NCBI GenBank assembly: GCA_015057035.1 | Contig: SVFC01000006.1 | Coordinates: 1-64,000 of the forward strand | Direction of reading: 5' to 3' | DNA from: Lachnospiraceae bacterium | GTDB taxonomy: Bacteria > Bacillota > Clostridia > Lachnospirales > Lachnospiraceae | Length of the DNA stretch: 64,000 nt | Shown: piece by piece, positions 19,498-58,132 of the stretch | Layout of the letters: each line of letters begins with the position of its first letter | How positions within the stretch are numbered: position 1 is the first letter of the stretch | Position numbers and translations under genes: made by a program | Notes under the pieces: generated by a model | Databases searched by the model: none | Told to the model about the DNA's origin: nothing | Seen by the model: the letters and a program-made list of their open reading frames with translations, nothing else

Positions 19498-19802
19498 GGG
19501 TGTAAGAAAAAGAACTTTTTCTTACACCCATATTTTCTCATAAAATTGTCCATTCATATCAACATATATATAATATATGGGTGTAGAAGACATAAAAGTC
19601 TTCTACACCCGGCATTTAAATAAAACTAAGGGTGCATATATACATTCTGTCCTATGCACCCTTAATACTATAAAAACTTCTAAAATCCGCTCTTTTTTCA
19701 TGTTTTACTGGGTGTATATAACTAATCCGTTCTACACACCCGCATCCTCGTAAAAACATTAGCGTCTTGGGTGTAAACTGCACAAATCACTTTACCACGC
19801 CC
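19498..19802. repeat. cluster 1 of 32-bp hairpin elements (five units)
   Basis: This fills most of the 416-bp gap between asnB and dpaB. Units run GGG to CCC at 19498-19529, 19579-19610, 19630-19661, 19710-19741 (each 32 bp) and 19769-19802 (34 bp). All have the form GGGTGTA or GGGTGCA, a variable core, then TACACCC, TGCACCC, CACACCC or CACGCCC. The first two are perfect hairpins; the third has GGGTGCA/TGCACCC, a compensated pair. Start-to-start offsets are 81, 51, 80 and 59 bp. The spacers are AT-rich and hold no ORF. Confidence 0.9.
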
Positions 19803-42183: not shown

Positions 42184-42380
42184 TTTAGATTTCCTGGGGT
42201 GAATTTTAGATTTCCTGGGCGTAGGGAGAGAAACTCTCTCCTACGCCCTTATTTTTATGTGTTTAGCTTCCATCTTCTCTTTTTATTCTAGAAATTTGGG
42301 TGTATATGCCGCTCGCCTTCTCCACACCCTGCACTTCACAAATATAGAGGGTATATTTTCTAGTGTGCATCTCTACACCC
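42184..42380. repeat. cluster 2 of 32-bp hairpin elements (three units) with duplicated edge
   Basis: This lies in the 450-bp gap between carB and degV. Units are at 42217-42248 (GGGCGTA...TACGCCC, perfect stem, followed by TTATTTTT, so also a good carB terminator), 42298-42329 (GGGTGTA...CACACCC) and 42349-42380 (GGGTATA...TACACCC). Offsets are 81 and 51 bp, as in the other clusters; no fourth unit is found at the expected place near 42429. Just ahead, TTTAGATTTCCTGGG is repeated (42184-42198 and 42205-42219), the second copy running into the first unit. The rest of the gap holds the degV promoter. Confidence 0.88.
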
Positions 42381-54705: not shown

Positions 54706-55407
54706 TTACTTCAACAACTCTTCAAGTGCAAGTACATCTTCTTTCTTCGCCGCTGGTATATCAGCAAACGGAAATTTCATTCCCAAATCATCATATTTCA
54801 CCTGACAGACTTTTTTGAAAGGAAGCAATTCCACCTTATCTACGCAAGAGTATTTATCAGCGATGCTTTTTAGTTTGAGAATATTTTCCTTATTATCGTT
54901 TAATGTTGGAATAATCACCTGGCGAAGTGTAACTGGAATCTTCTGCTCATCTAAATACGCTAAAAATTCCAGCACTTTATGCAGATCACAACCTACGTGT
55001 TTCTGATACTGTTCGTCTTCTGTATATTTGATATCCAAAAGTACTCTGTCTGTTTCCTGCAATAGATTTTTGATATCATCATTTAGAATACTTCCCGATG
55101 TGTCCAGACAAGTATTAATCCCTTCTTCGTGACATTTTACAAAAAGTTCACGAACAAACTTTGCCTGAAGCAGTGGCTCTCCACCTGATACGGTGATGCC
55201 GCCTTCTTCTTTATAATATTCTCGATAGCGAATGACTTTGCTTACGATTTCTTCTGTAGTGATTTCTTTTCCCTGTCGCATATCCCAGGTGTCTGGATTG
55301 TGACAACAACCACAGCGCAAGTTGCACCCCTGTAAAAACACCACAAAGCGTACGCCAGGACCATCCAGGGTTCCTAGGCTTTGAAATGAGTGTACATATC
55401 CCACCAT
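54706..55407 (-). CDS. pflA: pyruvate formate-lyase activating enzyme
   Basis: 233 residues from the ATG at 55407, chosen because AGAGGA lies six bases upstream; a frame from 55425 starts ahead of it. The radical SAM motif CxxxCxxC is met by CNLRCGCC, followed by HNPD. GGITVSGGEPLLQ and DTSG motifs also match the PflA family. It uses S-adenosylmethionine and a 4Fe-4S cluster to put the glycyl radical on PflB. It lies 355 bp downstream of pflB with hairpin elements between, so it may have its own regulation. Confidence 0.96.
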   Translation of the reverse strand: MVGYVHSFQSLGTLDGPGVRFVVFLQGCNLRCGCCHNPDTWDMRQGKEITTEEIVSKVIRYREYYKEEGGITVSGGEPLLQAKFVRELFVKCHEEGINTCLDTSGSILNDDIKNLLQETDRVLLDIKYTEDEQYQKHVGCDLHKVLEFLAYLDEQKIPVTLRQVIIPTLNDNKENILKLKSIADKYSCVDKVELLPFKKVCQVKYDDLGMKFPFADIPAAKKEDVLALEELLK

Positions 55408-55432
55408 ACTTATTCCTCTTTTCACAAATCAT

Positions 55433-55676
55433 GGGCGTAAATTACAATTTTACTCTATACACCCACATAATCTAACATTTATTCATGTTTTTCCTATGTT
55501 TATTAAACAATATGGGCGTAGATATTATACAATCTCTATACGCCCACATTTTTCTAATATTCGCGGGTGTATATGATAAACCTTCTATACACACCCATAA
55601 TTTTCAAAATCGCCCCAGTATCACTTCTATTTCACTTAAAAAGCGGGCGTAAAATATAGCATTTCCGTATACACCC
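55433..55676. repeat. cluster 3 of 32-bp hairpin elements (four units)
   Basis: This fills most of the 355-bp gap between pflB and pflA. Units, all exactly 32 bp: 55433-55464 (GGGCGTA...TACACCC), 55514-55545 (GGGCGTA...TACGCCC), 55565-55596 (GGGTGTA...CACACCC) and 55645-55676 (GGGCGTA...TACACCC). Offsets of 81, 51 and 80 bp equal those of cluster 1, and total length (244 bp) equals its first four units. Spacers of 49, 19 and 48 bp are AT-rich and show no clear identity with the other clusters. Confidence 0.9.
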
Positions 55677-55762: not shown

Positions 55763-57994
55763 TTAGATGCCCTCGTGGAAGGTGCGGCTAATTACTTCAC
55801 GCTGCTGTTCTTTTGACAACTTGTTGAAGTGTACCGCATAACCAGATACACGAATGGTAAGGTTTGGATACTCTTCTGGATTCTCATAAGCTTTCATCAG
55901 AGTTTCGCGCGTCATTACGTTTACATTGATGTGATGGGCTTTTTTTGCAAAATATCCATCTAAAATGTGAACCAGGTTATCAATTCTCTCTTCCTCTGTT
56001 CTACCAAGCGCATCTGGTGTGATAGAGAAAGTATTAGATACACCATCACGACAGTCATCATAACTGATTTTTGCTACAGAGTTAAGCGATGCAAGGGCAC
56101 CGTTTTCCTCACGGTTGTGCATTGGGTTTGCACCTGGCGCGAAGGCCTCCCCTGCTTTTCTTCCGTCTGGTGTCGTTGCTGTATTCTTTCCATACATTAC
56201 GTTGGAAGTAATCGTTAATACAGAAAGTGTGTGAATTGCATTTCTGTAGGTAGGTGTTTTACGAAGCTCTGTAATCACTGTGTGAGCCATATCTTTTGCA
56301 ATCAGGTCTACACGGTCATCATCGTTACCAAACTTAGGAAATTCTCCTGTAGTTTCAAAATCCACAATAAAACCACTGGCATCCTTAATCGGTTTTACAT
56401 CAGCAAACTTGATTGCACTTAAGGAGTCAGCAACTACAGAAAGTCCTGCGATACCAAATGCCATAAAACGGTCTACCTGTGTATCGTGAAGTGCCATCTG
56501 TGTTTTCTCATAAGCATATTTATCATGCATGTAATGGATAACGTTCATAGTATTTACATAGAGATTGCTGAGCCATTCGATGTAAATCTGATAACGTTCC
56601 ATCACTGCTTCGAAATCTAATTTTTCCACATCCATTACTGGCATCTGTGGTCCAATATGCATCTGGCTTGAGGTATCATAACCCCCGTTTAATGCGATAA
56701 GAAGAAGTTTTGGCAAGTTGCAACGTGCTCCAAAGAACTGCATCTGTTTACCAACTTTCATTGCTGATACACAACAAGCAATCGCATAATCATCCCCATA
56801 GATTGGGCGCATAAGGTCGTCATTTTCATACTGGATAGAGTCGGTGTCTGCCGAAACCTTTGCACAGAACTTCTTGAAGCCTTCTGGAAGGCTTGTGGAC
56901 CAAAGCACAGTCAGGTTTGGTTCTGGAGAAGAGCCTAAAGTATAAAGGGTATTTAATACACGGAAAGAATTCTTGGTAACAAGAGTTTTTCCATTTTCGC
57001 TCATACCACCTACGGCTTCTGTAATCCACATTGGATCTCCACCGAAAAGTTCATTATATTCTGGTGTACGAAGGTGACGGGCAATACGAAGTTTCATAAC
57101 GAAATCATCCATAAGCTCCTGTGCACCCTCTTCTGTTAAAATACCATTGGCAATATCTCTTTCAATGTAAATATCAAAGAATGTGCTGACACGTCCTAAG
57201 GACATAGCTGCACCGTTCTGTTCCTTGATTGCACCCAAGTATCCAAAGTAAGTCCACTGGATTGCTTCCTGCGCATTTCCTGCTGGCTTACTGATATCAA
57301 AGCCATACATTTCAGCCATTTCTTTGAGGTAGCCCAGGAATGTAATCTGCTGGAATAATTCTTCTGAAAGACGTACTTCTTCTGCACTGAAGTTGCCACC
57401 TTCTAAGGCTTTTTTGTCTTTCTTCTTTTCCTCGATGAGGCGATCGATACCATAGAGGGCTACACGACGGTAGTCACCGATGATACGTCCACGTCCATAA
57501 GCATCTGGAAGACCTGTGATTACATGACATTTACGTGCGTCACGCATTTCGTCTGTATATCCACGGAATACACCATCATTGTGCGTGGTTCTAAACTTGA
57601 ATTCGTTTTCAATCTTGTCGCTCAACTTGTAGCCGTATGCTTTACAAGCCTGACGAGCCATACGAATTCCACCGAATGGATTTACGCCTCTCTTTAGTGG
57701 GCGGTTGGTCTGCATACCAACGATGAGTTCGTTATCTTTATCAATATATCCTGGAGCATATGCTGTCAGAGAAGATACGGTTTCTGTATCAATATCCAAC
57801 ACCCCGCCATACTGTCTTTCTACGGCGAACAATGTTTCCAGCTTTTTCATCATATCCTGTGTACGCTGTGTTGGGCCCGCAAGAAACTCTGCATCTCCTG
57901 TATAAGCTGTATAGTTTTTCTGGATGAAATCACGTACGTTGATTTCGTTCTGCCAGTCACCGGCTACAAAGCCTGTCCAATTTTTGTGTTCCAT
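55763..57994 (-). CDS. pflB: formate acetyltransferase (pyruvate formate-lyase)
   Basis: 743 residues from the ATG at 57994, with AGGAGG seven bases upstream. The adjacent active-site cysteines are in ACCVSAM (about 410), and the glycyl-radical loop is RVSGYAVHF near the C-terminus. It converts pyruvate and CoA to acetyl-CoA and formate in anaerobic fermentation, and the formate can feed one-carbon metabolism. It is preceded by a ZTP riboswitch with an intrinsic terminator and a near-consensus promoter. Its activase gene pflA lies downstream. Confidence 0.97.
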
Positions 57995-58015
57995 TACAAT
58001 TCCTCCTATAAACAT

Positions 58016-58053
58016 AAAAAGGGCAACTCAGTATCTTTTGTACTAAGTTGCCC
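58016..58053 (-). terminator. intrinsic terminator of the ZTP riboswitch
   Basis: GGGCAACTTAGTA / TACTGAGTTGCCC on the minus strand, 7-base loop, followed by TTTTT. The 5' arm begins with the GGGC that also ends the aptamer, so ligand binding and termination exclude each other. Confidence 0.93.
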
Positions 58054-58123
58054 AGACGGTCGGCTAATTATCCTCTACACTCCACCGCAGTTCCCTGCGT
58101 TTTTCCGTCAGTCATGTAGAGGT
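58050..58123 (-). promoter_or_regulatory. ZTP (pfl-motif) riboswitch aptamer upstream of pflB
   Basis: The minus strand shows the two conserved halves of the pfl motif: CTCTACATGACTGACGG, and GCCGACCGTCTGGGC (58064-58050). The outer stem is CCTCTAC/GTAGAGG. The family binds the purine intermediates ZTP and ZMP, which build up when 10-formyl-tetrahydrofolate is short, and then turns transcription on. Here that would raise pflB, and hence formate, when one-carbon units run low. Confidence 0.93.
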
Positions 58124-58132
58124 TACAGTGTC

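Follow-up and report, generated by a model that had tools for sequence, protein, structure and literature searches.

We analyzed a 64,000-nucleotide stretch of DNA from a Lachnospiraceae bacterium (contig SVFC01000006.1, positions 1 to 64,000 of the forward strand; hereafter, the window) for a set of 12 short palindromic units that lie in three intergenic clusters, and we describe these clusters here together with their relatives in other genomes and a nuclease-like gene that accompanies them. A first-pass annotation of the window had presented the units as a family of hairpin elements set at fixed offsets; our recount agrees with it in coordinates and counts, in unit length (32 bp for 11 units and 34 bp for the remaining one), and in the start-to-start offsets. 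Cluster 1 (19498..19741, forward strand) is a tetrad of 32-bp units with offsets of 81/51/80 bp, namely, an almost perfect palindrome at 19498..19529 followed by units at 19579..19610, 19630..19661 (ends GGGTGCA/TGCACCC), and 19710..19741; an extra unit of 34 bp lies at a further offset of 59 bp (19769..19802), and convergent open reading frames (ORFs) are found on either side. Cluster 2 (42217..42380, forward strand) consists of three units (42217..42248, 42298..42329, and 42349..42380) at 81/51 bp between co-directional ORFs, with the position expected for a fourth unit being empty. Cluster 3 (55433..55676, forward strand) is again a tetrad at 81/51/80 bp (units at 55433..55464, 55514..55545, 55565..55596, and 55645..55676) and is flanked by a pflB-like ORF (55763-58015, reverse strand) and a pflA-like ORF (54706-55425, reverse strand), both named by reading their translations. 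Allowing up to three mismatches, the unit pattern matched 38 times in the window, compared to 10.58 times (standard deviation [SD], 4.49; maximum, 21) in 100 shuffles.

In what follows, G000 denotes the genome of the window, other G numbers denote related genomes, C denotes contigs, and L denotes fetched loci. Within G000 (2.4 Mb, 40 contigs, 84.7% complete), the unit was matched with at most one mismatch 43 times on the forward and 44 times on the reverse strand, compared to 1 and 2 matches, respectively, for a reversed control pattern. Further copies were found genome-wide, as the first-pass annotation had anticipated, and grouping of the units by hand resulted in 13 clusters. Ten of these contain four units at 81/51/80 bp or the mirror arrangement 80/51/81 bp, each offset deviating by 1 bp at most; the other three are C31:42217 (81/51), C5:66784 (51/79/80), and C13:78964, which includes one degenerate unit. 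Isolated single matches were seen at C4:44374 and C13:80127. Four clusters have an extra unit of 32 to 34 bp at exactly 59 bp (window 19769-19802, C5:48884, C13:78905, and C13:82039). The earlier observation of diverged cores and spacers with conserved lengths was borne out, since the G000 spacers are equal in length and have little sequence in common. Considering ORFs of at least 90 amino acids, the flanking genes are convergent for 6 of the 13 clusters, co-directional for 7, and divergent for none; 4 clusters overlap short ORFs of 93 to 113 amino acids, and the orientation of the clusters relative to the genes varies. An exact-match scan with the inner unit pair over public species genomes, from which the window's own and closely related records may have been excluded, returned a single Actinoplanes record, taken as a chance match, and the same scan of viral contigs returned none.

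Between array units, and outside the window, G000 contains an ORF of 259 amino acids (C13:79227-80003), which we refer to as the partner gene. Relatives of this gene are present in 30 of 62 genomes of the same genus group, which we take to be Roseburia. Across the order, 78 of 294 sampled genomes, representing 41 of 144 genera, have relatives, and many of them carry more than one; a few of these matches are weak. In a sample of the phylum, 20 of 398 genomes gave a match, and outside the family this match mostly concerned the C-terminal part alone. The 259-amino-acid protein had no match above cutoff or otherwise convincing in Pfam, NCBIfam, or PHROGs and no sequence-level match in the PDB at an E value of up to 1, which also applies to Tn7 TnsA and the VSR endonuclease. 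Profile comparison shows, at the level of sequence, that its C-terminal domain is homologous to a domain that models as a PD-(D/E)XK/EDxHD nuclease. Residues of the catalytic type are retained in almost every copy of two alignments, one of 26 of the 30 loci L104 to L133 (without L109, L122, L123, and L127) and another of 32 chosen loci. The closest structural match of the modeled domain in the VIA list, a list that does not exclude the families outside it, was the homing endonuclease I-Bth0305I. Viral contigs (L165 to L172) encode long helicase-like proteins with a C-terminal copy of the same nuclease domain. Matches in phages were restricted to three short unannotated "Bacteriophage sp." records, which are possibly bacterial DNA, and the nine plasmid matches were partial and mostly annotated as AAA ATPases.

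Several data sets link the partner gene to the arrays. (i) Some relatives of the gene adjoin pattern matches that were detected blind to the gene. A looser pattern with 34-bp units, run over the 62 genomes, identified unit pairs in 17 genomes; all 12 genomes with at least two such pairs contain the gene, and there was no such genome among the 32 that lack it (Fisher P = 4e-5). The five genomes with a single pair all lack the gene. G000 scores 0 with this pattern because its units are 32 bp long. (ii) We ran a detector of inverted-repeat families over 59 gene loci, corresponding to 57 genes since those of L104 and L124 appear again in L134 and L145, with 20 shuffles each. At least five units were found at 25 of the 59 gene loci (including L127, with its 150-bp spacing) and at 0 of 29 pfl loci of the genus used as controls, for which the first 3,060 bases, mostly coding and poorer in intergenic DNA than the gene flanks, were taken; shuffles and controls never exceeded four. 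With a weaker criterion, runs of units were detected at 32 of the 59 gene loci, namely, 22 upstream only, 5 downstream only, and 5 on both sides. (iii) G012 has two array classes, each of which adjoins a separate copy of the gene. We consider it very probable that the arrays are the cognate sites of the neighboring protein.

The half-site differs among lineages and tracks the N-terminal part of the protein. The similarity of half-site matrices correlated with protein identity at 33 loci (Mantel r = 0.37), a set that comprised the 32 arrays without L147 plus L104 and L112, for which unit positions were set by hand; opposite parses of one half-site were treated as equal. Separated by region, r was 0.44 for the N terminus, 0.30 for the middle part, and 0.34 for the nuclease part, and none of 2,000 permutations exceeded 0.17. 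In a joint regression on motif similarity, the coefficient was 0.057 for the N-terminal part and −0.002 for the nuclease part. Mean motif similarity amounted to 0.74 for the 8 pairs with at least 60% identity and ranged from 0.33 to 0.40 in the remaining bands.

The fixed geometry proposed initially holds throughout G000 and recurs across the genus in altered form. G035 has the half-site GGGTCT..AGACCC, with tetrads at 82/51/82 bp and an arrangement of 51/82/51 bp adjoining its gene copy; its pattern gave 41 matches with at most one mismatch at about a dozen places, compared to 9 for the control. Spacing is 71/53/71 bp in G064, approximately 71/51/71 bp in G018 (with one degenerate unit, by eye) in addition to 62-bp runs, 52 and 71 bp in the runs of G012, 52 bp in G013, 62 bp in G079, and 70 to 72 as well as 82 bp in G073. 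Unit ends are symmetric (for example, GGGYRYR..YRYRCCC, GGGTCT..AGACCC, and GTCAAC..). The four-unit element of about 244 bp is one layout within a broader class, which also includes several long tandem arrays (for example, L129, L139, L141, and L156) in which the whole period of 52 to 61 bp is repeated, spacers included. In G018, a small DUF6774 protein and an ORF that reads as a recombinase adjoin two array classes (L030:1829-3083).

The offsets of this class follow a helical ladder. Across 29 loci, a set that includes the doubtful L113 and L147 and whose genus list was entered by hand, the best-fitting period was 9.85 bp for modal offsets (R = 0.78) and 10.0 bp for the distinct offsets of each locus (R = 0.77). 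None of 2,000 null sets, drawn uniformly between 45 and 100, matched the observed periodicity, and the corresponding P value is optimistic since the loci share descent. Most common are offsets of 51 to 54 bp, followed by 61 to 63, 71 to 73, 81 to 82, and 93 to 94 bp, with L153 at 74 bp; offsets of 41, 49, 50, and 55 bp occur at single loci each, and tetrads combine two spacing classes within one element. Steps of about 10 bp point to a protein located on one face of double-stranded DNA. Two side observations concern the spacers. At L127, GCGTAG palindromes lie 150 bp apart (1177, 1327, 2476, 2626, 3203, and 3352), outside the ladder. By eye and without a count, spacer edges appear to vary with the offset (L046, L047, L048, L054, and others), being CCCCG..CGGGG at 51 to 53 bp and CCCAWW..WWTGGG at 71 to 72 bp.

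Comparison of copies and of corresponding sites indicates that tetrads and arrays probably disperse through genomes. G018 contains three complete tetrads that are 84 to 87% alike over 248 to 289 bp and two partial ones that are 83 to 91% alike to the complete copies; their flanks are mostly unlike beyond approximately 40 bp, and the copies end near the first and fourth units. L072 and L073 are more remote (70 to 77%). L063 and L067 have 397 bp in common, and some of the copies may therefore stem from a larger duplication. At the site of cluster 1, the distance between matched ends is 41 to 78 bp in G066, G024, G011, and G007, compared to 428 to 456 bp in the window, with the absence in G011 being derived from match coordinates only. 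In G066, G024, and G007, a short terminator-like hairpin (by eye) occupies the place of the cluster, whereas G064 has 140 bp and, by eye, no tetrad. For cluster 3, nine relatives have a shorter pflB-pflA gap without a tetrad; this comparison excludes the nearest relatives G024 and G066, in which pflA is absent from the stretch examined. Located 3' of the pflB relative of G066 is a long fold-back sequence with nested inverted segments (L076:3430-3960; by eye).

The first-pass annotation had left open whether the structure acts as RNA, as single-stranded DNA, or as protein-bound DNA. Of these, double-stranded DNA with bound protein agrees best with the offsets in steps of about 10 bp, the free spacer sequence, the varied orientation, and the half-site that tracks the N terminus; a hairpin has partial support. 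We favor, as the likely explanation, that the clusters are recognition arrays in double-stranded DNA for a dedicated nuclease-like protein from an undescribed family and that the tetrads of about 245 bp are small, nonautonomous, dispersing elements. Each unit of 32 to 36 bp would comprise two half-sites in inverted orientation (GGGTGTA in the species of the window) bound by one protein dimer, which would contact the half-sites through its variable N-terminal part. A spacing of approximately whole helical turns would align the dimers on one helix face in an ordered complex, and arrays adjoining the gene, mostly upstream of it, might also serve its regulation. The assembly could present DNA to the C-terminal PD-(D/E)XK/EDxHD-like domain for nicking or cutting, and repair could then copy tetrads or arrays into new intergenic sites, as proposed for the REP-associated tyrosine transposases (RAYTs) and REPINs, which are composites of repetitive extragenic palindromes (REPs). 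We consider the chances that the nuclease drives the movement of the tetrads to be about even. The outer units of G000 may additionally act as hairpins or cruciforms at gene ends.

A number of points weigh against this explanation, in addition to the coding-rich control loci and the shared descent mentioned above. (i) No qualifying array was detected within 1.5 kb at 27 of the 59 gene loci. The locus of G000 itself is among these misses because its units are degenerate; some of the 27 are thus false misses, and others may reflect true absence. (ii) The four extra units at 59 bp, including that at 19769..19802, fall outside the 10-bp ladder. (iii) The units of G000 are strongly diverged, so that recent movement is not evident in this genome, and no target-site duplication was established at the G018 copies. 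(iv) The structure model covers the C-terminal domain alone and was derived from a viral relative rather than from the 259-amino-acid protein. In the VIA list, mitoribosomal proteins (8.5 and 8.4) and Can2 (8.1) rank amid nucleases, leaving the top match alone as clear, and Foldseek returned no match for the modeled domain at an E value of up to 0.001. (v) The RAYT family PF01797 is present in 5 of the 12 array genomes. (vi) The arms of the G000 units covary, which plain protein half-sites do not need and which leaves room for a role as hairpins.

The first alternative is that the arrays are operators or architectural sites of a DNA-binding regulator or bridging factor with a retained nuclease-like fold and control the gene of this factor, the gene-less tetrads having become a domesticated regulon or serving to insulate gene ends. 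It accords with the upstream-only position of 22 of the 32 runs, with 5 on both sides and 5 downstream only, with the absence of divergent gene pairs around the 13 G000 clusters (6 convergent and 7 co-directional), and with the divergence of units at conserved spacing, which suggests long selection in place. We regard this alternative as unlikely, since catalytic-type residues are conserved in almost all aligned copies, similar tetrads are located in dissimilar flanks, and the half-site changes among lineages in a manner not expected of a housekeeping factor.

The second alternative, a four-hairpin element in RNA or single-stranded DNA, or cruciforms, takes arm pairing as the selected property. 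Pairing was assessed on 49 G000 units, leaving out the single matches and the extra units at 19769, C5:48884, C5:66994, C13:78905, and C13:82039. Pairs 4 to 7 were Watson-Crick in 163 of 196 cells, compared to 154.8 (SD, 2.6) with shuffled partners (P = 0.004), and pairs 8 to 11 were so in 100 of 196 cells, compared to 70.6 (P < 0.0002); for pairs 12 to 16, there was no excess (65 of 245 versus 75.3). The excess disappeared when partners were slid by 1 to 3 bp. These shuffle and slide tests supersede an earlier count against column composition that had suggested no covariation. The initial statement that end pairs change together was correct for pairs 4 and 6 and failed for pairs 5 and 7. Outer units showed strong covariation (52 of 80 cells versus 30.8; SD, 4.2), and inner units showed weak covariation (35 versus 28.5; P = 0.06). 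The clusters are situated at gene ends, and relatives have a terminator-like hairpin (by eye) at the site of cluster 1. On the other hand, the 31 distinct units of G035 displayed no arm covariation (57 versus 56.9), and within pairs 4 to 7 of G000, A-C mispairs outnumbered G-T mispairs (21 versus 8, or 19 versus 10 with units in the 81/51/80 orientation). Offsets in steps of about 10 bp, the varied orientation relative to genes, and the lack of an Rfam match over the clusters at gathering scores also speak against this alternative. The covariation noted in the first-pass annotation is thus partly real for the arms of G000, up to pair 11, and absent from G035; it is no general property of the array class. 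The covariation in G000 slightly raised the weight of the hairpin explanation and slightly lowered that of the recognition-array explanation. We consider the hairpin explanation improbable. Outer units close to gene ends may also function as hairpins at the ends of transcripts, and the binding of symmetric dimers or the manner in which the palindromes originate may also have caused the covariation.

A third alternative, in which gene and arrays hitchhike on another mobile element (a RAYT, an integrase, or a phage) and their pairing is incidental, can draw on an ORF that reads as a recombinase close to arrays on C14 of G018 and on PF01797 proteins in 22 of the 62 genus genomes, and it is very improbable given that most array genomes lack a PF01797 match and that the link between gene and arrays is found again in several genera, where the half-sites track the N terminus.

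Among known systems, the arrays most resemble REPs and REPINs with their RAYTs. According to excerpts of the corresponding articles, these are intergenic palindromes of 20 to 40 bp that disperse without the gene and whose enzyme gene is flanked by repeats (PMC3733652, PMC3116915, and PMC2817692); one of them counts a tetranucleotide at one end, either GTAG or CGTC, among the defining features of the REP unit and describes RAYTs as the presumed mobilizers of REPINs (PMC3733652). Short intergenic palindromes, composite elements, gene-less spread, and a dedicated enzyme gene beside the repeats are common to both; as to gene-less dispersal, G000 has 13 clusters and one gene match, and related copies are found in G018. 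Differences are that (i) the enzyme of the arrays is PD-(D/E)XK/EDxHD-like and RAYTs are of the HUH/Y1 type, (ii) the array units have symmetric ends without a GTAG or CGTC tag, and (iii) the arrays show spacing by approximately whole turns, free spacers, and lineage-specific half-sites that track the N terminus. A RAYT as the partner was considered and rejected, since no PF01797 match was obtained for G000 or for seven array genomes out of 12 (G010, G017, G018, G064, which is 99% complete, G067, G073, and G079) and the array-flanked gene belongs to another family. The EDxHD enzyme I-Bth0305I, whose structure ranked first against the modeled homologous domain, is described in a review as dimerizing on target DNA almost 60 bp long (PMC3943268), comparable to the pitch of 51 to 54 bp; it differs in that the presumed sites of the partner protein are multiunit arrays beside the gene and genome-wide, and the resemblance concerns the nuclease domain. 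The nuclease domain is also homologous to the last approximately 130 residues of the PDC-S68 proteins, which are candidate defense proteins in PADLOC; for the G000 protein, this match has an E value of 1.2e-29. The PDC-S68 models comprise approximately 1,200 to 1,270 positions and are helicase-like, as read from L165 to L172, whereas the protein described here has 259 amino acids, an N-terminal half of its own, and arrays. CRISPR-type arrays are unlike these arrays, in that several long arrays repeat their spacers too and tetrads vary in both cores and spacers. As for a miniature inverted-repeat transposable element (MITE) with a conventional transposase, the G018 copies end within about 40 bp of their first and fourth units and show no clear target-site duplication.

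The earlier statement that no described element has this geometry remains valid in that we found no description of such arrays in titles and abstract openings, a search that covered subscription journals and preprints only to a small extent. Judged from sequence, the system appears to resemble REPIN/RAYT functionally and departs from it in defining features. A more far-reaching possibility, which we put forward tentatively, is that one order of gut bacteria harbors an undescribed type of selfish DNA, consisting of a homing-type nuclease with its own helix-phased array, fast recoding of the half-site by the N terminus, several paralogues per genome that are each coded independently, and gene-less satellite tetrads. 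If correct, the REPIN/RAYT lifestyle would have evolved a second time by an independent route, which would permit testing of whether systems composed of a palindrome and an enzyme arose repeatedly. Intergenic hairpins that look anonymous would gain a partner protein, a spacing rule, and a broad distribution. The N termini and their half-sites would form a natural series for learning a DNA recognition code, and the many recoded proteins might yield laboratory tools that bind or cut specific DNA sequences.

The sole Rfam match in the window at gathering scores lies apart from the clusters and is a ZMP/ZTP riboswitch (RF01750; 64.1 bits) at 58043-58125 on the reverse strand, immediately 5' of the pflB-like ORF.
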